Below, one piece after another: positions 5,691-32,342 of a stretch of DNA of 64,000 nt (the first letter of the stretch is position 1; each line of letters starts with the position of its first letter). The notes below the pieces were generated by a model. The model was given only the letters and a program-made list of their open reading frames with translations, did no database searches and was not told where the DNA came from. Position numbers and translations under genes: made by a program. Source of the DNA: Pseudemcibacter aquimaris (lineage in GTDB: Bacteria; Pseudomonadota; Alphaproteobacteria; Sphingomonadales; Emcibacteraceae); NCBI RefSeq assembly GCF_028869115.1, contig NZ_CP079800.1, positions 1,674,001 through 1,738,000 on the forward strand. Direction: 5' to 3'.

Positions 5691-7109
5691 TCAAACCTTA
5701 TTAAGCGGGATATCAATCCAGAATGTAGTCCCCTCGCCGTGAACGGTATTAAACCCTATTTTACCGCTCATGGCGTCGACCAGCCCTTTAACGATGGCAA
5801 GGCCAGCGCCAGTGCCCTCAATCGCCCTGTTATCAACGCCAGCACGGTTAAAAGGTTTAAATACGTTGCTGATCTCGTTTTTCGCAATACCGTGTCCCTC
5901 GTCCTTTACAGTGATCCTAAGAACATCGTCATTTAATTCAAAAATATTGAGCCAGATTTTTCCGCCACGGTTACCGTATTTTGCCGCGTTACCAATAAGT
6001 GCCGTTAAAATTTGTGTGATCCATTCTTCACGGGAATATATAAATGCTAACCCGGAAACATGGTCCGTATCGTCGATGATATAAAGACTGGCACCGTATT
6101 TGGCGGCGATCTCTTTTACTTTTTCTTCGTTTGGTTCAATAAGCTCGCTAAGACGGATTTTTCTTAATTTCTTCGGTAGACTTTGGCTTTCAATGCTACT
6201 TAAGTTCAATAGATCATTAATCAACGTTAATAAGCGCAAGCCGGAAAAATGAATATTTCCGATGAACCCTTTCTGTTTATCATTTAACGGTCCATACATT
6301 TCCATTTTTAGGGCATCAGAAAAACCAATAATGATATTAAGGGGTGTTCTTAATTCATGGCTCATATTCGTCAGGAAAACCGATTTTGATTTATTGGCAA
6401 CATTGGTTTCCATTAACGCATGCGACAATGCATTTTTTACGGCAACGCTTTTTTCAATTTTCTTTTCAAGTTCGTTTCTTGTGCGCCCGAGTGTTAACAG
6501 CAACAAACTTATCATAATTAAAATCAGCACAAGATATATCGGCGAAACGCTTCTTGCAAAGGATGTATTATCAACACCCGATACATCAAATTCCAAATAG
6601 AACCAATAAGCGTGAATTGTTAAATGCGTAATTAATAAAAACAGCACTAACGCTTTTTCAAGTGAATATGATTCATCATCATAATTATGAAGCACATATG
6701 TTGACCCAATCAGGAATAAAGTATTAAAGCCAATAATGACCATTCGTCTTGTTTCATCTTCGAACGGATTAAATAAGCCATATGTATTAATCAGCGCGCA
6801 AAGTATGATGGCACCGATGAATATTTTCTTATTCACTTTGACTTCACCAAATTCAATAAAGCCCATCAAAAGCGCAAAATATGAAAATGATGCAGATGTA
6901 TTAAAAACATAAATATAGGTATCCATGTTTCGAATTTCCGGCATAGTGGATAAAACAGTATCCACCGTAAGCGTACAGGAAAAAATCACCCACCACATAA
7001 TGGAACGTGGACGGCTATGTACAATCCACAATATGAACATCAATACGGCAATCACAGCGATAATCACTGCACTGCTAAACTGTATTGTATATCCGTCAAG
7101 AGTATTCAT
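5691..7109 (-). CDS. 7-TM sensor histidine kinase, type A copy 2
   Basis: Last gene of the four-kinase leftward array. The N-terminal 210 residues contain about seven membrane helices and form an unrecognised sensor. Then come a short coiled linker, a HisKA domain with phospho-acceptor H251 (SHELRTPLN), and a HATPase_c domain with N-box NAAKYG, G1 DEGHGIA and G2 GTGAGLAI. All catalytic motifs are intact. It shares STMPEIR near residue 55 and ANKSKSxFLTN before the His box with the kinase at 8593, and differs from the other two, which defines type A. It starts 8 bp after the type B copy 2 gene with a good AGGAA ribosome binding site. No receiver domain is attached. Confidence 0.93.
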   Translation of the reverse strand: MNTLDGYTIQFSSAVIIAVIAVLMFILWIVHSRPRSIMWWVIFSCTLTVDTVLSTMPEIRNMDTYIYVFNTSASFSYFALLMGFIEFGEVKVNKKIFIGAIILCALINTYGLFNPFEDETRRMVIIGFNTLFLIGSTYVLHNYDDESYSLEKALVLFLLITHLTIHAYWFYLEFDVSGVDNTSFARSVSPIYLVLILIMISLLLLTLGRTRNELEKKIEKSVAVKNALSHALMETNVANKSKSVFLTNMSHELRTPLNIIIGFSDALKMEMYGPLNDKQKGFIGNIHFSGLRLLTLINDLLNLSSIESQSLPKKLRKIRLSELIEPNEEKVKEIAAKYGASLYIIDDTDHVSGLAFIYSREEWITQILTALIGNAAKYGNRGGKIWLNIFELNDDVLRITVKDEGHGIAKNEISNVFKPFNRAGVDNRAIEGTGAGLAIVKGLVDAMSGKIGFNTVHGEGTTFWIDIPLNKV

Positions 7110-7117
7110 ATTTATTC

Positions 7118-8560
7118 CTAAACCCGTAATGCCCGCTGTTCTGTTTTTGGAACATCAATCCAGAATGTTGATCCAACGCCAACTTTACTGATGAAATCAA
7201 TTGACCCATTCATATCTTCGATTAATTGCTTTGCAATAGAAAGTCCGACACCGACCCCTTCGATTTTTGTGTCATCTTTACCGGCCCGGTCAAATGGTCT
7301 AAAGACGCGGTCCTGATTATTTTGCGAAATCCCTGGCCCTTTATCGGTTACGGAAATTCGGTAAAAACGATCATCCACTTCTGACATGGCAAGAATAATG
7401 TCTGATTTTTTATCACCATATTTTGCGGAATTAGATACCAGATTAATCAGAATTTGTGACACACGAATTTGATCAACAAAAATCGCGGCTGATGATCTTT
7501 TTTCACTCGGGATTTTATTTTCCAAAATAATCTGAACGTCCGTTTTACCAACGATTTCATTTAGAAGAGGCAATGTTTTATTCACAAGCGATATCAAATT
7601 TACATTGTCAGAATTAATTTCAACTTTGCCTTCTTCGATATTTGATAGATGCAACAGATCGGTGATTAATTTTAAAAGGAATTCACCGCCATTATGAATA
7701 TGGTCGATATATTCCATCTGTTTTTCATTAAGATCACCATAAAAATCAAGCTTAAGGCTTTCTGAATAACCAAGAATACCATTTAGTGGTGTTCTTAATT
7801 CGTGGCTCATATTTTTAAGAAACACATCCTTTTCCACATTGGCTTTTTTTGCAGCCTCTAGCGCAACAGAAAGTGATTGTTCCAAGCTTTTTTGTATTTC
7901 ACTTTCTGATTTAAGCTGTCCCCTGCGCCAGGCAATAACAAGTGTGATAAGCGCAAGTGAGATAAAAATATGACTTAAGTAAGCAAGCGCCAAGCTAAGC
8001 AATACGCCATAATTAAAAGCAGGGTTATCAAAATCAAATCCGATTAAAATCCAAAATCCCATAACCGCCAATTGAAATGACATCCAAAACATAGCGAAAT
8101 ATTTTTCCACAAGAAAACATTTTCTTGTAAGCCGCGTCATCGCATAAATCGAAATACAATATGGGATGATTGCAAATGCGACGATCGCCTGGGTTCTTGC
8201 AGCAAGTTCCGCGGATAGACCGAGCTGCACCAGACACACAAGAATGAATGCCACCATATAGCCGGCGATATGTTTCCAATTATATTTGATTTCAGCAAAT
8301 GTTAAACAACCAATCATCAGCAGCACATCCGATGCGACAATCGCAACATTGCCAACGTAAATGATAAATTCATTATCATATTGAATTGAATCCGATGAAA
8401 TCAAACTATTCACAAGACGAAATAATGGAAACCCGCACCACCACATAATGGCGTCAATATCTGAATTTTGTCGCCAGAAAAAACATAATATGAATAGCAA
8501 TATTGCGTAAAAGAAGCTGCTTATGCTTGTAATGGTCGCAATATCAAGAAAAAAATCCAA
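7118..8560 (-). CDS. 7-TM sensor histidine kinase, type B copy 2
   Basis: A 480-residue orthodox membrane kinase. About seven helices lie in residues 1-210, H253 in SHELRTPLN is the phosphorylation site, and N-box NSAKYG, G1 DKGPGIS and G2 GVGVGLSI complete the ATPase. The start is a TTG at 8560 preceded by AAGGGG at about 8 bp. The choice is supported by alignment to the type B copy 1 protein (LDIAT vs IDVAT at the N-terminus) and by the lack of any early ATG. It resembles the kinase at 10008 much more than its direct neighbours (LISSD, YVGN/YIGN, EKxVFLK, GVGxGL). It is separated by 32 bp from the upstream type A gene and by 8 bp from the downstream one. Confidence 0.92.
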   Translation of the reverse strand: MDFFLDIATITSISSFFYAILLFILCFFWRQNSDIDAIMWWCGFPLFRLVNSLISSDSIQYDNEFIIYVGNVAIVASDVLLMIGCLTFAEIKYNWKHIAGYMVAFILVCLVQLGLSAELAARTQAIVAFAIIPYCISIYAMTRLTRKCFLVEKYFAMFWMSFQLAVMGFWILIGFDFDNPAFNYGVLLSLALAYLSHIFISLALITLVIAWRRGQLKSESEIQKSLEQSLSVALEAAKKANVEKDVFLKNMSHELRTPLNGILGYSESLKLDFYGDLNEKQMEYIDHIHNGGEFLLKLITDLLHLSNIEEGKVEINSDNVNLISLVNKTLPLLNEIVGKTDVQIILENKIPSEKRSSAAIFVDQIRVSQILINLVSNSAKYGDKKSDIILAMSEVDDRFYRISVTDKGPGISQNNQDRVFRPFDRAGKDDTKIEGVGVGLSIAKQLIEDMNGSIDFISKVGVGSTFWIDVPKTEQRALRV

Positions 8561-8592
8561 TTGTCACACCCCTTAGTCAATTGCATTATTAA

Positions 8593-10011
8593 TTAATAGA
8601 GCGGAAATTCAACCCAAAATTCACTTCCGACATAACTTTCGCTTTTAAAACCGATTGTACCATCCATTAACTCCGTTAGCCCCTTAGTAATTGGAAGGCC
8701 CGTTCCGGCACCATCGACCCCCTGATATTCAAAACCTGCGCGGTTTAATGGTTTGAATACATTATGAAAGTGGCGTTTGTCTATACCTATTCCTTCGTCA
8801 ATGATAGAAAAACGATACTTGTCATGGTCTGTTTTCCCATGAATTAACCTAATGCGGCTATTTGTCTGACTATATTTAATCGCATTATCCAGTAATGATT
8901 TCATGATTTGATTAAAGGCTTTTATATCAACTTTAATCACATCTTTTTCACGTAATTCAAAATCACTGTCGAGTTTATCAATAGAGAAACGTCTTTGTTT
9001 TTCTTTCATTTCTTCTTTTATTTTGGGAAATAACCAACCCATAATTTCATCCGGTTTTTCATCAACCAGATCGATGTCAACAATGCCCGCCTCAATATTG
9101 GATAGGTTTAACAGACCCGTGATTAATTTATGCAGGCTTTTACCACTGTCATTAATGCTTTTAACGAATTCGGACTGTTTATCGCTTAATTTCCCGGCGA
9201 TATCGCTTAACAGCACCTCGGAAAAACCAAGTATACTATTAAGCGGCGTTCTTAATTCATGGCTTAAATTCGTCAGGAAAATTGATTTCGATTTATTGGC
9301 CATGTTTGCTTTGGACAAGGCATCAGAAATGCCCTCTTGCGCTTTTTTATAACGGTTATTTTCAAAAAACAGTTGGTATCTTCTACGTGCCATAATCAAA
9401 AACAGCAAATCGATAATGATCATCGCATCAATTACGTAAATGGCCGCAAAGCTTAAAATTCTATATTGAAGATTATCTTGAATAACGCCTTCGATTTCAA
9501 TGAACCAGCTTAAATATACGAGGATATGTGCAGTGATTAGGATTTGTAAAAACAGCTTTTCCAAGAAATAGCTTTTTTTATTTAAATGATTTAACGCATA
9601 CATACAGCTTAAAAGTACTAAGGAAATAAACGCGGCCGTGACATTAAGGCGGATGTTAATATTAAATGATAAAAGAGCATCCATTATTTCAAATAAAATA
9701 TAGGATAACAGTATCGCCCAGATGTATATTTCCTGGATTTTTACATGGCAAAATTGCCATATACCGTTCATCAACAAGACATAAGCAAGAACGCCAATAA
9801 AATTAAGCACATAATTTATCGGAACAGCAGTACGGATTTCAGGGAACATTGAAACGAACCCTTCAACCGAAAGCAGAAGTGACGCATATATGCACCATTT
9901 AAGCCCTTCAATATCACTGTTTTTACGGGAAAAATTGTAAATAACGACGCATAAAACAACATGCGTTAACGTGATCATCAATTGTATGGTGAAGATGTCA
10001 AATTCCATCAT
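8593..10011 (-). CDS. 7-TM sensor histidine kinase, type A copy 1
   Basis: A 472-residue membrane kinase with about seven helices in residues 5-210 and a HisKA His at H251 (NLSHELRTPLN). The ATPase motifs NAIKYS, DEGIGID and GAGTGLPI are intact, though the Pro in the G2 box is unusual. It is translationally coupled to the upstream type B gene: its ATG overlaps that gene's stop in an ATGA. The sensor region carries the type A mark SMFPEIR near residue 55. The input signal is unknown. The same length and His position as the other type A copy (472 residues, H251) argue for a recent shared origin. Confidence 0.93.
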   Translation of the reverse strand: MMEFDIFTIQLMITLTHVVLCVVIYNFSRKNSDIEGLKWCIYASLLLSVEGFVSMFPEIRTAVPINYVLNFIGVLAYVLLMNGIWQFCHVKIQEIYIWAILLSYILFEIMDALLSFNINIRLNVTAAFISLVLLSCMYALNHLNKKSYFLEKLFLQILITAHILVYLSWFIEIEGVIQDNLQYRILSFAAIYVIDAMIIIDLLFLIMARRRYQLFFENNRYKKAQEGISDALSKANMANKSKSIFLTNLSHELRTPLNSILGFSEVLLSDIAGKLSDKQSEFVKSINDSGKSLHKLITGLLNLSNIEAGIVDIDLVDEKPDEIMGWLFPKIKEEMKEKQRRFSIDKLDSDFELREKDVIKVDIKAFNQIMKSLLDNAIKYSQTNSRIRLIHGKTDHDKYRFSIIDEGIGIDKRHFHNVFKPLNRAGFEYQGVDGAGTGLPITKGLTELMDGTIGFKSESYVGSEFWVEFPLY

Positions 10012-11438
10012 TGCTCTTCCCCCTCATGCGCAATGGGGATATCAAACCAGAATGTTGCCCCCTTACCCATTTTGCTATCAAAACCAATATCGCCCTTCAT
10101 GGCTTCTATCATGGTTTTTGACACCGCAAGTCCAATACCCACACCATCAATTGTTGAATTTTCATAACCACCCCGGTGATACGGTTTAAATATGTTTTCT
10201 GCCTGATCCGCAGATACACCAAGCCCCTGATCAGTAACACTTATTCTTACGTAATCATCATTTTTTCTAAAAAGTCGAATTGTAATCTTACTTTTTTCCG
10301 GGCTATAATTTGATGCATTGGAAACAATATTAATCATAACCTGTTTAAAACGAACCGGGTCCACATAAACATCCGGGCAATCATTATTTTTAAAATCATT
10401 TTCGATTGAAAGATCATTTTGATTTTTTCTAATCAGTTCATCAAGTAAGGGTCTGGTTTTTCCAAGCAGTTTTGCCGGGTCTTGTTTTTCGATATCAACA
10501 TCAACGGCGCCAATTTCAATGTTGGAAACATCAAGCAGGTCTTTGATCAATTTCAATAGATAATCTCCACCCGTTTTAATATGGCCGATATATTCCTGCT
10601 GCTTTTCATTGAGCGTTCCGAATTTATCCATTTGAACGGTTTCAGCGTATCCCATGATCGCATTTAGTGGCGTTCTGAGTTCATGGCTCATGGATTTAAG
10701 AAAGACGGATTTTTCCTCGTTTGCTTCCTGTGATGCGCCGAGTGCTTCATTGAGTGATTTTGAAACCAGTTTATAGCGATCATTTTCCGCCTCAAGCTGT
10801 TCTGAGCGTTTCGCAAGCGCCATTATTACAAGCCCGACGGTTATAAACACGTGCGAAAGGTTTAATAATCCCAATGAATTAACGCCCATCGCGGCAATGT
10901 TGCCTTCTGGGAAATGGAACCCATAAAACAGCCAGAAACTAAATATTAAAAATTGAACGCCGAGCCAGAAAAGCAGAAACCGTTTTTCAAAAACATAATA
11001 TTCATTTTCAAGTTTTGTGATAGCCACCATGCTGAACGTAACAAGTATGATTGACGCAAGTGATAAGGTGGTGGCACGTGTTTCGAATTCGACATTCACT
11101 GCAAATTGTATAGCAAAGACGGCTATAAAAACCGCGACAAACGCATAAATCAACACATAATTGATTTTCATTTTTACGAACTTCATGCATCCAATAAGAA
11201 GGAATACACCGGAAAGTAACACGAAAAAATTCCCGATATATATTGGCAAGTTCATTACATAGTCACGGGTATCAGAAGAAATCAAAAGATTAAAAATTCG
11301 AAAAGCTGGGAAAAGCGCCCACCAGAAAGCAGCCTCAATATCGCGATTTTGAAACCAGAATATCCCCAATAGGATAAATAAAATCGTATATAGGCTCGTG
11401 CTTGTTGCGTTTAATGTTGCGACATCAATTAGTAACAT
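10008..11438 (-). CDS. 7-TM sensor histidine kinase, type B copy 1
   Basis: First gene of the leftward kinase array, 476 residues. Seven predicted membrane helices are followed by a short coil, HisKA with H252 (SHELRTPLNAIMGY), and HATPase_c with NASNYS, DQGLGVS and GVGIGLAV. The N-box Lys or Arg seen in the paralogues is replaced (NASNY). The ATG start at 11438 lies 72 bp from the end of the methyltransferase gene upstream, and a TATAAT is visible in that gap. The stop overlaps the start of the next kinase by 4 bp. No response regulator gene is adjacent. Confidence 0.93.
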   Translation of the reverse strand: MLLIDVATLNATSTSLYTILFILLGIFWFQNRDIEAAFWWALFPAFRIFNLLISSDTRDYVMNLPIYIGNFFVLLSGVFLLIGCMKFVKMKINYVLIYAFVAVFIAVFAIQFAVNVEFETRATTLSLASIILVTFSMVAITKLENEYYVFEKRFLLFWLGVQFLIFSFWLFYGFHFPEGNIAAMGVNSLGLLNLSHVFITVGLVIMALAKRSEQLEAENDRYKLVSKSLNEALGASQEANEEKSVFLKSMSHELRTPLNAIMGYAETVQMDKFGTLNEKQQEYIGHIKTGGDYLLKLIKDLLDVSNIEIGAVDVDIEKQDPAKLLGKTRPLLDELIRKNQNDLSIENDFKNNDCPDVYVDPVRFKQVMINIVSNASNYSPEKSKITIRLFRKNDDYVRISVTDQGLGVSADQAENIFKPYHRGGYENSTIDGVGIGLAVSKTMIEAMKGDIGFDSKMGKGATFWFDIPIAHEGEEQ

Positions 11439-24857: not shown

Positions 24858-26081
24858 ATGACAGAAAAAAATACTAATAAATCCAGCGGAATTATATCCG
24901 CTTATGGTGATAGTTTAAAAAAGAATCCAAAATTAACAATCGCGGCGAGTATCTTTCTTGTTGTGGTTGGTGGCCTTGCTGCGACGCGAACAGGTGAAAT
25001 TATCGGTCGCGCTTCTGCGGCGGTTGATAGCGTCGATGTGGCAAACGCCCTCACCGTTAGCACAGTAACAGCAGAACAAACCCAAAATTATCAAACAGTT
25101 CAATATGTAAGCGGTCAAGTCATGGCCGCCCGCGAAAGTGATCATGGTTTTGACCGTTCAGGCGTCCTCGCGGAAGTGCTGGTTGACGAAGGTGACCGCG
25201 TTAAAAAAGGTGACATCCTCGCGAAACTAGACATCAGAAAATTAAATGCACAACATAATCAATTTAAAGCTGATCTTGAAAGCGCAAAAGCATTCGCCGT
25301 TGAGGCCAAAACAAATCAACAACGTGCCAAAGCGGCATATGACAGATATAGTGCTTTAAAAGACAGTGGCCATATTTCCCAGCATCGACTGGATCAAGCA
25401 GAAACAGACCTTGCATCCGCCAATGCGGGCGTAACATCAGCAATGGCAAATATTCAAAAAATTGAAGCGGCACTTGTTGCGGTAAATGCTGATATCGACC
25501 TTGCGACTTTAAGTGCGAAATTCGATGGCACCGTTGTTAAACGCTACCGTGACGAAGGGGCATCTTTCGGTATGGGTGGTGGCCCGATGATCAGGTTGAT
25601 CGAGGACGGTAAACTTGAAATACGCGTTGGATTAACGGAAAATGCCGCCACAAGTATGGAACAAGGCGCAAAATACACATTCGCGCAAAATGGGCGTGAT
25701 ATCAACACAACATTAAGGTCCATCGTCGGACAGGTTGATCAAAACACCCGCACCATATCTGCCATTTTTGATATTGATCCTGGGCAAAATGTAATCCCGG
25801 GAACGCTCGCGGAAATTGCCGTGAACGTTAATGTTAATGAAACCGGATACTGGCTTCCGACAGAGGCACTCGCGGAAAGCCGCCGTGGCCTTTGGACAGC
25901 ATACACACTTTCCCCATTTGAAGGACGTAGTGACGTTAGCGAGCTTAAGCGTCAGGAATTACAAGTTCTATATACCGAAGCAGACCGCGTATATGTTCGC
26001 GGAACATTAAGCGATGGTGACCAGGTTGTTTCCAGCGGCACACATCGTCTTTCTTCCGGCTTTATCGTGAAAGCGAACTAA
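24858..26081 (+). CDS. RND efflux periplasmic adaptor (membrane fusion protein)
   Basis: A 407-residue adaptor linking an RND pump to an outer-membrane channel. One N-terminal membrane helix (about 28-46), no lipobox. The lipoyl half-motif VDEGDRVKKGDILAKLD is near residues 112-128, an alpha-hairpin rich in Ala and Gln spans about 130-205, and the second lipoyl half and beta-barrel follow (FDGTVVKRYRDEGASF). The gene is followed after 3 bp by the pump gene, so they are co-translated. No TolC-type channel gene is present in the operon, so an outer-membrane factor encoded elsewhere must be used. Confidence 0.93.
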   Translation: MTEKNTNKSSGIISAYGDSLKKNPKLTIAASIFLVVVGGLAATRTGEIIGRASAAVDSVDVANALTVSTVTAEQTQNYQTVQYVSGQVMAARESDHGFDRSGVLAEVLVDEGDRVKKGDILAKLDIRKLNAQHNQFKADLESAKAFAVEAKTNQQRAKAAYDRYSALKDSGHISQHRLDQAETDLASANAGVTSAMANIQKIEAALVAVNADIDLATLSAKFDGTVVKRYRDEGASFGMGGGPMIRLIEDGKLEIRVGLTENAATSMEQGAKYTFAQNGRDINTTLRSIVGQVDQNTRTISAIFDIDPGQNVIPGTLAEIAVNVNVNETGYWLPTEALAESRRGLWTAYTLSPFEGRSDVSELKRQELQVLYTEADRVYVRGTLSDGDQVVSSGTHRLSSGFIVKAN

Positions 26082-26084
26082 GCC

Positions 26085-29000
26085 ATGTGGAGCAATCTTT
26101 TTTATAAAAACAAGCGGCTTACCGCTCTTGTACTTGGGTTCATATTCGTGGCGGGCTTATCGGCCCTGTCATCCATTCCAAGACAGGAAGATCCATTGAT
26201 CGCCCACCGTTTTGACGTGGTCGTGACAACATTCCCGGGTGCCAGCGCCGAACGCGTTGATGCACTGATCACTGAAAAAATCGAAGCATCCCTCGCCCGG
26301 GTTGATGAAATCCGTGAAGTCAACAGCACATCACGCGCGGGTGTTTCAAACATTTCCGTTGAACTGGAAGAAGATATCCCGCGTGATGAGCTTGAAAACA
26401 TCTGGTCCAAGGTACGTGATAAATTGGATGATGCGGTGCCGTACTTACCAGCGGGAGCAAGCAAGCCACGCATGCTTGACCGTGAAAGCCCGGTTTATAC
26501 ATTCATGGTCGGCTTTACATGGGACAATGAAACAGAGGACCCACAGTTAGATATTCTTGGCCGTTTTGGCCGTGAATTTGAACGCGCCCTCGCCCCCATA
26601 TCCGGAACCGTAGATACCGGTGTATTCGGTGAACCATCTGAAGAAGTGCTTGTAGATATTGATCCCGATGCCCTTGCAAGCGTTGGTATGACCATATCAC
26701 AGGTTTCCGCCGCCATCGCCACATCCGACAGTAAAATTCCAGCCGGACAAGTGCGCGCAAGATATAATGACCTGCTTGTTGAGGTTAGTGGCGAATTAAA
26801 ATCAGAAGACCGCGTTAGAAGCATTATTCTGAAACAGCTTGATAGCGGTGAATTCTTACGTGTTGGTGACATCGCAACCGTAAAGAAAACGGTACGTGAA
26901 CCATCAACCGCCAATGCGCTTATTAACGGCAAGCGCGCCGTGATTGTTGGTGCAAAGGTTGACCAAAACGTGCGTGTGGACCAATGGGCCGCTAAAATGT
27001 ATGCGGCAACAGAATTATACCGTGATGTAATGCCGGAAGGCGTCACCATGGAAGTGATCTTTTCACAGGACAGCTACGTTACCGACAGGCTATCCACGCT
27101 TCTTGGTAATATCATCATCAGTTGTATCATTATTATTTCTGTGATGATTTTCATGATGGGCTGGCGTTCTGCGATTTTGGTGGCGACAAGTTTGCCGCTT
27201 ACGATCCTGATGGTAATGACGATCTTTAATTTGATGGATGTGAACCTGCATCAAATGTCCATCGGTGGTATTATTATCGCGCTTGGATTGCTTATTGATA
27301 ACGCCATTGTTGCCATTGACAAATATAAGTTTTCAAGATCACAGGGCATTGATGTTCCAACATCCATTTCCAAAATGGCGAAACATTTGATCATTCCCCT
27401 GCTCGCGTCGACGGCGACAACATCGCTTACCTTTATGCCGATTGTTCTTGCCCCTGGGCCAACGGGTGAATTTATCGGCACCATTGGTATGGCGGTTATA
27501 TTCTCGCTCGCGTCATCGTTATTCCTTGCGCTAACGATTATTCCTGCGCTTGCGGGCTATCTGGATAAGAATGATTTCTTTAAAGGATCAGCAGAGCCGG
27601 AAAATGGCGTAACCGATGTAAAAGACATCCTTGCCAATGGTTATATCAATGTGCCGCTTCGCGAAAGATACCGTAATGCGCTTTCATGGTGTCTTGATCA
27701 TCCGAAAAAAGCGGCCCTGATTTCCATTTCATTGCCATTGCTTGGTTTTATTCTTGCGTCCACGCTTATTCAGCAATTCTTCCCGCCGGGTGATCGTGAC
27801 CAATTCCAAGTACAGCTTAAAATGCCATCAACCGCCAGCCTTGAAGAAACTACAAGACAGGTTTCAAAAGTACGCGAGGTATTCGCAAGATATCCTGAAA
27901 TTACCGACGATGTATGGGTGATCGGTGAAAACCCACCGGGTGTTTATTATAACACATTCCTTGCTAACGACGGCGTCAGCAGCTTCGCGGGCGGGTTCGT
28001 GACCACAGGGTCCCCTGATGAAACACGTGCGATTTTACCGCAGCTACAGATTGATCTGATCAACGAAGTACCCGACGCCATGGTTCTGGCACTTCCGTTT
28101 GAACAAGGACCACCATTTGAAGCCCCGGTTGAAGTCTTGATTTACGGACAGGATTTAAATGTTCTTTCAAATCAGGCCGAAGAAATCCGCCGCATCCTAG
28201 CAACATCAAAAGGTGTCAGCTATACGCAAGTTAAATCGGACTTCAGCCAGAAAAAGCTGATGTTTATTCCAAACGAAGAAGCCGCACAAGTTGCGGGGCT
28301 AAAACTTAATGACGTTGCCCAGCAATTAAACAATGCCCTTGAAGGGCAAGTTGGCGGCAGCGTGCTTGAGGGCACAGAAGAACTACCCGTGCGCGTTAGA
28401 TACGGCAATGAAAACCGCACCGACCTTGATTTCATCATGAATAACAGTGTGGTTTCTGCAAATGGTGCTGTTGCCGTGGCAAATGGCGATCGTGCGGGTA
28501 TTCCGTTATCATCCCTTGGCCGTATGGAAGTGGTTCCAACCATCAGCACCATCGTTCGCCGCGATAGTCGCCGAATGAATGTGGTGCAAGCCTATGTTCA
28601 TCCATACAGTCTGCCGGGTGCAACGCTTCTTGATTTACGTGCAAGACTTGACGCGGCCGGATTTGAACTGCCCGCCGGTTATGAAATGGCATGGGGCGGC
28701 GAAGAAGAAAAACGTGCTCGTTCCGAAGGTGGGCTTTTCTCAACCGTTCTGCCATTGATGGTTATTATGGTTGGTATTCTTGTGCTTGCCTTTAACAGCT
28801 TTACATCGGCCTTAATCATTGGTGGTGTTGCCTTCTTTAGTGCGGGTCTTGCGCTGCTATCATTATGGCTCTTTGGGTTTACCATGGGTTTCATGGGTAT
28901 CATGGGTACAATGGGTCTTATTGGTCTAGCAATTAACGATAGTATCGTTGTTCTTGCCGCCCTTCGCGCAAATGAAAACGCAAGAAACGCCGATAAAGCC

Positions 29001-29264
29001 GCCATTGTACAAGTTACTATCAATTCTACGAGACATATTGTCTCAACCACATTCACGACGATTGGCGGTTTTTTACCGTTAATTCTGTTTAGTGACGCAA
29101 TGTGGCCCCCTCTCGCGACAGCCATTGCCGGCGGCATGGTTGGCGCAACGCTACTCGCGCTGATATTTGTCCCTTCACTATACTATCTGCGTGTAAGACG
29201 GCGTGTGAATAAACTCGCGGCCGAGGGCGGCACAGTTCTACCGCTTGAAAGAGCGGCAGAATAA
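26085..29264 (+). CDS. RND efflux pump inner-membrane subunit
   Basis: A 1059-residue proton-driven exporter of the AcrB-like superfamily: TM1, first periplasmic loop, TM2-6, TM7 (about residue 540), second loop and TM8-12. The N-terminal IPRQEDPLIAHR and porter-domain motifs are typical of efflux RND permeases. TM4 reads GLLIDNAIVAID, so the usual Asp-Asp proton-relay pair is Asp-Asn here; this occurs in some clades. TM10 has GLAINDSIVVL. The substrate is not predictable (drugs, bile-like compounds, metabolites). A strong hairpin lies 8 bp after the stop codon. Confidence 0.94.
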   Translation: MWSNLFYKNKRLTALVLGFIFVAGLSALSSIPRQEDPLIAHRFDVVVTTFPGASAERVDALITEKIEASLARVDEIREVNSTSRAGVSNISVELEEDIPRDELENIWSKVRDKLDDAVPYLPAGASKPRMLDRESPVYTFMVGFTWDNETEDPQLDILGRFGREFERALAPISGTVDTGVFGEPSEEVLVDIDPDALASVGMTISQVSAAIATSDSKIPAGQVRARYNDLLVEVSGELKSEDRVRSIILKQLDSGEFLRVGDIATVKKTVREPSTANALINGKRAVIVGAKVDQNVRVDQWAAKMYAATELYRDVMPEGVTMEVIFSQDSYVTDRLSTLLGNIIISCIIIISVMIFMMGWRSAILVATSLPLTILMVMTIFNLMDVNLHQMSIGGIIIALGLLIDNAIVAIDKYKFSRSQGIDVPTSISKMAKHLIIPLLASTATTSLTFMPIVLAPGPTGEFIGTIGMAVIFSLASSLFLALTIIPALAGYLDKNDFFKGSAEPENGVTDVKDILANGYINVPLRERYRNALSWCLDHPKKAALISISLPLLGFILASTLIQQFFPPGDRDQFQVQLKMPSTASLEETTRQVSKVREVFARYPEITDDVWVIGENPPGVYYNTFLANDGVSSFAGGFVTTGSPDETRAILPQLQIDLINEVPDAMVLALPFEQGPPFEAPVEVLIYGQDLNVLSNQAEEIRRILATSKGVSYTQVKSDFSQKKLMFIPNEEAAQVAGLKLNDVAQQLNNALEGQVGGSVLEGTEELPVRVRYGNENRTDLDFIMNNSVVSANGAVAVANGDRAGIPLSSLGRMEVVPTISTIVRRDSRRMNVVQAYVHPYSLPGATLLDLRARLDAAGFELPAGYEMAWGGEEEKRARSEGGLFSTVLPLMVIMVGILVLAFNSFTSALIIGGVAFFSAGLALLSLWLFGFTMGFMGIMGTMGLIGLAINDSIVVLAALRANENARNADKAAIVQVTINSTRHIVSTTFTTIGGFLPLILFSDAMWPPLATAIAGGMVGATLLALIFVPSLYYLRVRRRVNKLAAEGGTVLPLERAAE

Positions 29265-29271
29265 AGATATG

Positions 29272-29305
29272 CCGGGGTGGTTTTATTTCTCGTTTACCAC
29301 CCCGG
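29272..29305 (+). terminator. hairpin after the RND operon
   Basis: CCGGGGTGGT (29272-29281) and ACCACCCCGG (29296-29305) form a perfect 10-bp GC-rich stem with a T-rich loop, directly after the pump gene. The tail is only moderately T-rich (TGTATTTAAAAAATT), so termination is likely but may be incomplete. Confidence 0.65.
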
Positions 29306-29321
29306 TGTATTTAAAAAATTC

Positions 29322-29349
29322 TTGCATTGGGATTTTCTTTTGATATTGT
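29322..29349 (+). promoter_or_regulatory. candidate promoter for the copper leader ORF
   Basis: TTGCAT (29322-29327), a 16-bp spacer and TATTGT (29344-29349) resemble a weak sigma70 promoter. A transcript starting about 7 bp after the -10 would begin at or next to the A of the small ORF's ATG (29356), giving a leaderless message, which would fit the absence of a Shine-Dalgarno sequence there. Confidence 0.3.
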
Positions 29350-29355
29350 TTGCCC

Positions 29356-29499
29356 ATGATCAGGCAACTTAGAACATTTATATCCGCATTTTTGCTTCTT
29401 GCATTTACCGCAAGTAGTGTTCTTGCCTGTGCCTGTGAAATTCAGATTTCCCATAACACCAACACATTGGTTGCACAAAAAATACTCCTGTTAATTTGA
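29356..29499 (+). CDS. 47-residue exported leader peptide upstream of copA, possibly CutF-like
   Basis: The ATG at 29356 opens a 47-codon ORF with a good signal-peptide profile: Arg near the N-terminus, the hydrophobic stretch FISAFLLLAF, and TASSVLA before a Cys-Ala-Cys at residues 25-27. A short hydrophobic tail ends at TGA 29497-29499. No Shine-Dalgarno is visible. The hairpin that covers the copA ribosome binding site begins 4 bp after the stop. Small exported Cys-containing ORFs upstream of multicopper oxidase genes control their translation in Rhodobacter (cutF-cutO), and Bordetella CruR is similar in idea. Similarity here is in layout, not proven homology. It could also be a remnant of a longer gene. 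Confidence 0.5.
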   Translation: MIRQLRTFISAFLLLAFTASSVLACACEIQISHNTNTLVAQKILLLI

Positions 29500-29502
29500 T
29501 AC

Positions 29503-29546
29503 CCGTCTAAAAATCCTTAATCCAATATCAAAGATTTTTTAGATGG
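29503..29546 (+). promoter_or_regulatory. leader hairpin covering the copA ribosome binding site
   Basis: CCGTCTAAAAATC (29503-29515) pairs with GATTTTTTAGATGG (29533-29546), giving about 13 pairs with one bulged T and one G-T pair, around a 17-nt loop. The last two G of the right arm are part of GGAA, the likely copA ribosome binding site, which sits 6 bp before the ATG at 29554. A closed hairpin should reduce copA translation. The pairing is seen directly; the regulatory role is inferred. Confidence 0.5.
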
Positions 29547-29553
29547 AACAATC

Positions 29554-31587
29554 ATGTTTAACAGACGAGATTTTTTAAAATCCACTGGTGCCGCCAGCAC
29601 ATTTATTGCGGCAAGTGGTGTTACACCGGGCCTTTTGCCAGCCTGGGCACAATCAAATGGTAGAGCCGATTTATCAGGGATCAATGTGTTATCCGGCACA
29701 GAATACGATCTTCACGTGGGTAAAAAACGTGTGATGATTGATGGAAAACCGGGGAATGGTGTGGTCGTCAATGACCAGCTTCCAGCACCGCTTCTTCGTT
29801 GGAAAGAAGGGGATGATATTACCCTACGTGTTACCAATCATTTAAAAGTGGACACATCCATTCATTGGCACGGTATTTTGTTACCGTTTCAAATGGACGG
29901 TGTTCCGGGTGTAACATTCCCGGGGATTAAACCTGGTGAAACATTCACTTATAAATTCCCGGTAAAACAGGCGGGAACATATTGGTACCACAGCCATTCC
30001 GGATTACAGGAACAATCCGGCCATTACGGCCCGATCATCATTGAACCCAAAAACGGATACCCACAAGAATTCGACCGTGAATATGTTGTTGTGCTATCCG
30101 ATTGGACATTTGAAAACCCGCACAGATTATTTGCCAAGCTTAAAAAAATGGGCCACGGTTATAATTTCCAGCAACGTGACCTCGCGGAATTTTTAAGTGA
30201 TGTTCGTAAAAACGGTCTTGGCGCCACCATGGCTGATCGTAACATGTGGGGCGCCATGCGCATGACACCAACGGATCTTTCCGATGTGACTGGTGCATCA
30301 TACACATATTTGATTAACGGACATGGGCCAAATGACAATTGGACGGGTATTTTTAACCCCGGTGAACGTGTAAGACTACGTTTTATCAATTCATCGGCCA
30401 TGACCATATTCAATGTCCGTATACCAGGTCTTCCGATGACGGTGGTACAGGCAGATGGCCTTGATGTTAAATCTGTTGAAACAGACGAATTTCAAATGGG
30501 TGTTGCTGAAACCTATGATGTGATAGTTGAACCAAAGGATCAAGCATACACTTTAATGTGCGAAAGTATTGAACGTGCGGGTTTCGTGCGCGCCACCCTC
30601 GCCCCACGTGCGGGTATGGAAGCCGAGGTCCCACCATTACGAGAACGCCCGAAACTAACCATGAAAGACATGGGTGGTATGGATCATGGCGATATGGACC
30701 ACGGCAGCATGGATCATAGCAGCATGACAGAAATGGATCACGCGGCAATGGGCCACACGATGCCGGAACCAGAACCAACCGTTGACCATTCAACAATGGA
30801 TCATTCGCAAATGGATCACGCAGCCATGGGCCACACAATGCCGGAGCCTGAACCAACCGTTGATCATTCAACAATGGATCATTCCCAGATGGACCACGCG
30901 GCAATGGGCCACACGATGCCGGAGCCGGAACCAACCGTTGATCATTCAACAATGGATCATTCACAAATGGATCACGCGGCCAAGGGGCATGACATGTCAA
31001 ATATGGAAAGCATGGAAATGCAAGCCCATAATCACCGTAAAGATCACGGTGTCGTCAACACCGCCATGAGCCCGGTAAGCAGATTACATGAACCAGGTAT
31101 TGGTCTTGAAAATGTGCCCCATAGGGCGCTGACGTATATGGACCTTGAAGCACTTGAAATGAACCCGGACATGCGGGCGCCGGAACGGGAAATGGAACTA
31201 CATTTAACCAGTAACATGGAACGGTACATGTGGTCGTTTGACGGCATTAAATTTTCCGAAATTAAAGAAAATATATTCTTTAAAAAAGACGAACGTATCC
31301 GCCTTACCATGGTCAATGATACCATGATGCCGCACCCTATTCATTTGCACGGTATGTTTTTTGATGTGGTCACCGTTGAAGGAAGCCATTTCAAACCACG
31401 AAAACACACAATCATTGTGAAACCAGGGGAAAAATTATCTGTTGATATAACGGCCGATGCCATCGGCGATTGGGCATTTCATTGTCATTTGATGTATCAT
31501 ATGCATGCAGGCATGTTCCGTGTTGTTTCGGTAAGGGAAAATCTGCCAAACCCGCACGCACACCATAATATGGGGGATATGTCATGA
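29554..31587 (+). CDS. copA: CopA-type multicopper oxidase, copper resistance
   Basis: A 677-residue periplasmic cuprous oxidase. Tat signal RRDFLK (residues 4-9) with AWA-Q cleavage near 33. The three cupredoxin domains carry the copper ligands HWHG (104), HSHS (146), HPIHLHG (594) and HCHLMYHMHAGM (643); the last includes the type 1 Cys. A Met/His-rich linker (about 374-480) should bind Cu(I). It contains three exact-length 26-residue repeats plus part of a fourth. It overlaps copB by 4 bp (ATGA). CopA oxidises and binds periplasmic copper to lower its toxicity. It is probably regulated through the leader ORF and hairpin just upstream. Confidence 0.96.
   Translation: MFNRRDFLKSTGAASTFIAASGVTPGLLPAWAQSNGRADLSGINVLSGTEYDLHVGKKRVMIDGKPGNGVVVNDQLPAPLLRWKEGDDITLRVTNHLKVDTSIHWHGILLPFQMDGVPGVTFPGIKPGETFTYKFPVKQAGTYWYHSHSGLQEQSGHYGPIIIEPKNGYPQEFDREYVVVLSDWTFENPHRLFAKLKKMGHGYNFQQRDLAEFLSDVRKNGLGATMADRNMWGAMRMTPTDLSDVTGASYTYLINGHGPNDNWTGIFNPGERVRLRFINSSAMTIFNVRIPGLPMTVVQADGLDVKSVETDEFQMGVAETYDVIVEPKDQAYTLMCESIERAGFVRATLAPRAGMEAEVPPLRERPKLTMKDMGGMDHGDMDHGSMDHSSMTEMDHAAMGHTMPEPEPTVDHSTMDHSQMDHAAMGHTMPEPEPTVDHSTMDHSQMDHAAMGHTMPEPEPTVDHSTMDHSQMDHAAKGHDMSNMESMEMQAHNHRKDHGVVNTAMSPVSRLHEPGIGLENVPHRALTYMDLEALEMNPDMRAPEREMELHLTSNMERYMWSFDGIKFSEIKENIFFKKDERIRLTMVNDTMMPHPIHLHGMFFDVVTVEGSHFKPRKHTIIVKPGEKLSVDITADAIGDWAFHCHLMYHMHAGMFRVVSVRENLPNPHAHHNMGDMS
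30733..30966 (+). repeat. three tandem 78-bp coding repeats in copA
   Basis: Units at 30733-30810, 30811-30888 and 30889-30966 encode MDHAAMGHTMPEPEPTV plus DHSTMDHSQ, with a partial fourth unit (MDHAAKGH) after them. The copies are very similar at DNA level (only scattered synonymous changes), so the number of units probably changes by recombination or slippage, altering the number of Met/His copper ligands. Confidence 0.95.
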
Positions 31588-32342
31588 AGAAGATAATGTT
31601 TACCTTTGCCGTCATGACGTCATCCGCATTTGCGCAGGAACCGCTTGACCAATATTATAGCCCAGAAGAAATGGCCGCATCCCGCGCCATGCTTAAACAT
31701 ATCACCGGCGCCATGAACCAGACATTCGTCATGGCTGATAAGTTTGAATATAGACCCGCTAATGGCGGTGCGCTTGCATGGGAAGCAAAAGGATGGCATG
31801 GCGGTGATAAAGAAAAGCTATGGATCAATTCAGAAGCCGAATATTCATTCGAAGAAGACGGCTTTGAAGAAGGAAACGTGGAAATTCTTTATAGCCGCGC
31901 GGTTTCCCCGTTTTTTGATGTACAAGCAGGCATCAAACAGGATTTCAATATGGGTCCCGGCAGAACATATGGCCAAATCGGCTTTATGGGACTGGCGCCA
32001 TATTGGTTTGAACTTGGTGGTGCACTTAACATCAGCAATAAGGGCGAAGTATCCGCCAATTTCGAGGTTGAATATGAACTGCTATTAACCCAGCGATTGA
32101 TATTACAACCAGCAGCAGAGATCAGCATCAATTTCGAAGACATCGAAGAAATGGGTATTGGTTCCGGCCTTTCGGATTTGGAAGCCGGACTTCGCTTAAG
32201 ATACGAAATATTCCGTGAAATTGCGCCTTACATTGGCGTAAGCTGGCATAAGAAATTCGGCCAGACCGCAGAATTTGCCGAACACCATGGTCACAGCAGT
32301 AGCGAAGCAAGCTTTGTTGCCGGTGTGCGCATGTGGTATTGA
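31584..32342 (+). CDS. copB: CopB-type outer-membrane copper resistance protein
   Basis: A 252-residue exported protein with a signal peptide (ending SSAFA-Q, residue 18). The mature part is rich in amphipathic beta strands of the CopB barrel family (AGIKQDFN, TYGQIGFMGLAPYWFELGG, YELLLTQRLILQP, APYIGVSWHKKFG), ending in VAGVRMWY. The long Met/His-rich N-terminal region seen in many CopB proteins is nearly missing here, where the ligand-rich repeats sit in CopA instead. It is translationally coupled to copA. It probably sequesters copper or lets it pass at the outer membrane. The gene is followed by a pair of inverted hairpin repeats. Confidence 0.92.
   Translation: MKKIMFTFAVMTSSAFAQEPLDQYYSPEEMAASRAMLKHITGAMNQTFVMADKFEYRPANGGALAWEAKGWHGGDKEKLWINSEAEYSFEEDGFEEGNVEILYSRAVSPFFDVQAGIKQDFNMGPGRTYGQIGFMGLAPYWFELGGALNISNKGEVSANFEVEYELLLTQRLILQPAAEISINFEDIEEMGIGSGLSDLEAGLRLRYEIFREIAPYIGVSWHKKFGQTAEFAEHHGHSSSEASFVAGVRMWY

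Follow-up and report, generated by a model that had tools for sequence, protein, structure and literature searches.

The small reading frame before copA in Pseudemcibacter aquimaris resembles an internally deleted CutF/CopL-type leader

Leader peptides that sense copper are a known kind of regulator. In the case of CutF, copper binds a CxxxC motif outside the membrane, about 45 residues before the C-terminal motif at the end of the protein, and slows the nascent chain, of which about 30 residues lie in the ribosome tunnel and 17 cross the membrane (PMC9973294). In CruR, 45 residues separate CXXC from RAPP (PMC9426467). RAPP and RGPP are the two robust arrest motifs described in PMC12992588.

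The locus described here lies in a 64,000-nucleotide stretch (the window, 1674001-1738000) of the complete 3.37 Mb chromosome of the alphaproteobacterium Pseudemcibacter aquimaris. At the copA locus, its closest named relatives are two MAGs, one from the Emcibacteraceae (L034) and one alphaproteobacterial (L033). An RND adaptor, an RND permease, a strong hairpin, a small ORF, copA and copB follow one another (Table 1). The hairpin behind the RND genes, for which a G-rich/C-rich pair of like kind exists in both of the congeners compared below, shows no clear U tract and is possibly the end of the RND transcript. Within CopA, residues of about 385-480 (window 30700-31000) form tandem His/Met-rich repeats (HSQMDHAAMGHTMPEPEPTVDHSTMD), and CopA homologues vary in length across this part. 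Elsewhere in the window, on the minus strand at 5691-11438, four adjacent membrane proteins of like size (472-480 aa) look like a tandem paralogous array.

Table 1. Features of the copA locus, in window coordinates
Feature	Position	Strand	Basis
RND periplasmic adaptor, upstream unit	24858..26081	+	TIGR01730, E 8.8e-45
RND permease (ACR_tran), upstream unit	26085..29264	+	PF00873, E 9e-137; synteny
17-pair hairpin between RND operon and leader	29265..29312	+	MFE -27.1, z -6.26
Putative promoter, TTGCAT (29322-29327)-16-TATTGT (29344-29349)	29322..29349	+	Sequence; weak match
Leader ORF, 47 aa, MIRQLRTFISAFLLLAFTASSVLACACEIQISHNTNTLVAQKILLLI	ATG 29356 to TGA 29497-29499	+	ORF translation
Cys-Ala-Cys, codons 25-27 of leader	29428..29436	+	Position shared with the congeneric leaders and those of L037, L039, L109
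Approximate junction of internal deletion	29449..29463	+	Protein and DNA alignment
Hairpin from leader stop to copA start	29497..29554	+	Predicted folding
copA, CopA-type multicopper oxidase with Tat signal	29554..31587	+	TIGR01480, E 2.7e-246
copB, outer-membrane copper resistance protein	31584..32342	+	PF05275, E 3e-82

The original prediction had placed a 47-codon ORF with a signal peptide and Cys-Ala-Cys before copA, and this ORF is indeed present at 29356-29499. It consists of a signal peptide (residues 1-24, called only from hydropathy and from visual inspection of a hydrophobic N-terminus), CACE and the C-terminus TLVAQKILLLI, and its stop lies 54 nt before the copA ATG. The CAC is its sole Cys pair, 20 residues from the C-terminus; neither a CxxxC nor a CxxC metal motif was found in the mature part, and there is no PP motif, so none in the last 15 residues. 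It had also been anticipated that DUF2946 would not be obvious in the leader, and the PF11162 profile gave no match at E<=1 to the window ORF or to the congeneric leaders. Likewise, Pfam DUF2946 did not match six copA leaders, and no NCBIfam or Pfam model matched the copA leaders. An Rfam scan of the window at gathering score returned 0 matches, hence no known riboswitch or RNA family.

The search in relatives suggested with the original prediction finds both the leader ORF and a predicted hairpin before copA in two congeners (G004 and G008), with the ORF at full length (137 and 132 aa). Their copA genes are orthologous (86-88% identical), the order RND-leader-copA-copB is common to the window and both congeners, and the RND permease occupies the same position and is 80-82% identical. 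Each congeneric leader runs from LACACE through a His/Met-rich part to CAGSC or CESNC, then to RGPP or RAPP 42 residues on (26 residues before the C-terminus), and ends in TTLFAQGxLLRI. The three leaders share an MI(K/R) start, SVLACACE and a C-terminal TL.AQ..LL.I, with 18 invariant columns. From the window ORF about 85 middle residues of the congeneric leaders are missing, with frame, start and stop intact. A profile search of 32 family genomes gave significant matches in the own genome, G004 and G008 only; no other member of the genus has an orthologous copA. As these three genomes supply the rows of the profile, the search shows absence elsewhere and not independent discovery, and the E-value of the window ORF (9.4e-13) is that of one of the three rows. 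The independent basis for homology, as read from the sequences, is position, gene order and alignable ends. No close homologues were found on plasmids.

The window ORF is thus, to judge from these alignments, an internally deleted leader of the CutF/CopL type. A leader of this kind before a copper oxidase was what the original prediction had envisaged, and rightly so. The further idea that it represents a separate type had to be rejected, because full-length homologues with CxxxC and RAPP or RGPP occupy this position in two congeners. The missing Pro-type stall signature is true of the window ORF, where it is absent because the leader middle is deleted, but not of the congeneric leaders. Lacking CxxxC and a C-terminal PP, it is best described as derived by deletion from a CutF-like leader, and not as a CutF-like copper sensor. 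We regard the feature as real, its origin as ordinary and its state as unusual, namely a CutF/CopL-type leader that appears to have lost its sensor.

Other alphaproteobacteria, and some gammaproteobacteria, have about 20 leaders of like design ahead of copA, roughly 110-160 aa long. In those of L037, L039 and L109 the presumed signal-peptide cleavage site carries Cys-Ala-Cys, and the C-terminus reads P..L.LK.RLLN. Measured in six long leaders, the distance from the last CxnC Cys to the C-terminus is 63-72 residues, against 20 for the Cys pair of the window ORF. In the surveyed loci, a thin sample without L142-L191, where the available part of the copA N-terminus was too short to match, no other convincing signal-peptide leader of 60 aa or less was found before copA. 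The own genome also encodes, at G000:C1:3116498-3116848 (L106), an intact CruR/CutF-type leader of the DUF2946 kind, with CPLC and a C-terminal RAPPAFL, upstream of PCu(A)C-like and Sco-like genes.

At the start of the window ORF, a TATTGT hexamer resembling a -10 element sits 6 nt before the ATG, and no purine run resembling a Shine-Dalgarno (SD) sequence is visible ahead of it. The same arrangement is seen in the congeners, where TTGAAA or TTGAAC is followed after 17 nt by TATCTC or TATGCC. In all three species, therefore, the -10 lies exactly 6 nt before ATGATCA with a spacer of 16-17 nt and without SD, and a strong hairpin is kept just 5' of the leader promoter. It is a fair inference that the leader ORF begins a putative leaderless mRNA. 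The promoter-like element and leaderless start of the original prediction are therefore upheld as regards the TATTGT near the ATG, the lack of SD and the probably leaderless start, but the hexamers themselves are weak; the window pair agrees with the sigma-70 consensus at 8/12 positions and was absent from the output of a consensus promoter scan.

The hairpin claimed to follow the leader stop, with the GG of the copA ribosome binding site (RBS) in its right arm, is borne out by folding. The predicted main stem comprises 11 pairs (29503-29513 with 29536-29546) and 3 further inner pairs, while the stop-zone TGAT (29497-29500) pairs with ATCA (29551-29554), including the A of the copA start; the window pairing is therefore TGAT/ATCA plus CCGTCTAAAAA/TTTTTTAGATGG. 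The right arm includes the GG at 29545-29546; the copA ATG (29554) follows 7 nt later. The minimum free energy is -13.4 kcal/mol (z -3.16), with 2 of 200 shuffles as good, and about 1% of shuffles reach the pairing. In the congeners the pairing is TGATACC/GGTATC(A/G) with differing inner stems, and the folding z of all three species lies between -3.2 and -3.8. Base pairing in each predicted stem begins at the leader stop codon, and the opposite arm covers the copA RBS; the apical stem sequences are quite different and not alignable.

Pairing between the stop zone and the RBS amounts to about 9 to 12 expected pairs in the three species, against about 2 in shuffles, and the fraction of dinucleotide shuffles reaching it is 0.013 for the window and 0.000 and 0.027 for the congeners. 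As a same-genome control, 40 gene pairs, each on one strand and 40-90 nt apart, were taken from 464 kb of the own genome; 2, 0 and 2 of them equal or exceed the pairing of the window and the two congeners, respectively. The pairing is unusual, not unique, so what counts is that it recurs in three species whose inner sequences differ. The layout of L011 is alike: its stem covers the RBS and is tied to the stop zone. The final leader codons of L109, L107 and L052 pair with or beside the copA SD, with weaker statistics than in the window and congeners; in the folding models this suggests that the end of a long reading frame may itself serve as anti-SD arm. Coverage of the RBS was not seen in the leader-copA loci L006, L037 and L080.

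What the deletion left behind can be read as a plain translational coupling device without a copper sensor, a reading to which we give slightly better than an even chance. The in-frame internal deletion took away the His/Met-rich region together with CxxxC and the arrest motif of RAPP type; a putative leaderless start, the CAC-bearing signal peptide, the C-terminal end and a stop codon at the base of the predicted hairpin remain. According to this model, a ribosome finishing the leader would then cover the left arm of the hairpin and free the copA start region, so that copA would be made whenever the leader is translated, and copper control, if any, would reside at the promoter. Consistent with this, placing a ribosome at the stop codon in a crude model raises predicted RBS openness, though modestly, from 0.30 to 0.42 in the window and from 0.21 to 0.47 and 0.34 to 0.48 in the congeners, and placing it at the RAPP position gives no rise. 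The coupling reading is limited by the 2 of 40 ordinary gene pairs that are as strong and by the occurrence of the locus in only two congeners.

The original prediction went further and proposed that copper bound to the nascent peptide opens the hairpin, which is unlikely for the window copy. Such a mechanism requires a copper site that emerges from the ribosome ahead of the stop codon, whereas here the sole Cys pair is 20 residues short of the C-terminus. As the tunnel holds about 30 residues (PMC9973294), the CAC would still be inside the ribosome at termination, and in a whole chain of 47 residues the hydrophobic core of the signal peptide would be barely out of the tunnel at the stop codon; exported nascent-chain sensing is for these reasons not credible here. 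In the two congeners a mechanism of that kind is plausible.

The loss of sensor and arrest motif would also be expected if the locus were a decaying remnant, in which the deletion destroyed the regulator, the ORF and hairpin are being lost and copA is expressed basally regardless. We consider this possible though unlikely. The leader ends are strongly constrained between the congeners (dN/dS about 0.09), whereas the window compared with the congeners gives a dN/dS of 0.51 with one and a pN/pS of 0.43 with the other, where synonymous sites are saturated; these estimates rest on about 45 codons. Scaled to CopA, the C-terminal part of the leader has changed about twice as fast in the window lineage as between the congeners, and this amino-acid change above the CopA-rate expectation fits decay. 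The N-terminal part, however, has changed on the window branch at about the rate seen between congeners, and nonsynonymous divergence stays well under the saturated synonymous level. Also against decay are the preservation of reading frame, start, stop and promoter spacing, and a hairpin that beats nearly all shuffles despite its changed sequence.

It is decidedly improbable that the window ORF is instead a minimal sensor, with Cu(I) on Cys25-Ala-Cys27, in the tunnel or exported, affecting termination at KILLLI-stop and so copA. Exactly the CAC and the C-terminal TLxAQxxLLxI were retained, and CAC at the mature N-terminus recurs in other alphaproteobacterial leaders, but the known spacing (about 45 residues in CutF, PMC9973294; 45 in CruR, PMC9426467) and the Pro motif are gone, the chain is too short for its signal peptide to meet the translocon before the stop, and no precedent was found for tunnel sensing of copper. 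More doubtful still is the specific version in which a naturally minimised, 47-residue leaderless copper leader senses in the ribosome tunnel and copper changes termination at the stop in the hairpin base. Least probable of all, in our estimate, is that the hairpin is mainly an element of mRNA stability or processing, or a chance structure, and the ORF merely the 5' end of the copA message. The 2 of 40 intergenic regions of equal stop-RBS pairing and the three leader-copA loci with uncovered RBS could be accommodated in this way, but not readily the stop-tied, RBS-covering stem in all three genus species with the locus and in L011.

For the CutF/CopL class the locus amounts to a natural deletion experiment, with congeners that have the full sensor and one species without it, in a contrast set sharing gene order and the predicted hairpin anchored on the stop codon. 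Such a set would separate coupling, for which translation to the stop suffices, from copper sensing, for which CxxxC and arrest motif are needed. The same separation matters for CutF, whose arrest was only 'stalling-like'. Moreover, the six long leaders keep a constant 63-72 residues between CxnC and the C-terminus, which provides a testable ruler for where copper acts on the nascent chain.

Overall, one of the closest known systems is CutF-stem-loop-cutO of Rhodobacter capsulatus (PMC8456105, PMC9973294), in which a small ORF with a signal peptide likewise precedes a Tat-exported multicopper oxidase, with a short intergenic region and a stem-loop over the oxidase SD. An N-terminal Sec signal peptide, a length below 150 aa, a close same-strand downstream gene and a predicted SD-covering stem-loop are all found in the window, and the full-length congeneric leaders have CxxxC as well. 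The window ORF, in contrast, lacks the CxxxC and the C-terminal Pro motif that are both required in CutF, has 47 aa against 118, and its hairpin begins right at the stop codon. Like CruR and the DUF2946 leaders (PMC9426467), the congeners have CxxxC-42-RAPP/RGPP, near the 45 residues of CruR; unlike CruR, which acts through Rho and has a long intergenic region, the motif is absent in the window and stands 26 residues before the C-terminus in the congeners. CopL of Xanthomonas and Stenotrophomonas, as described in PMC9973294, is likewise a small leader directly before copA-copB and acts in cis; compared with CopL, there is no NCBIfam sequence match and the window copy lacks the metal-binding middle.
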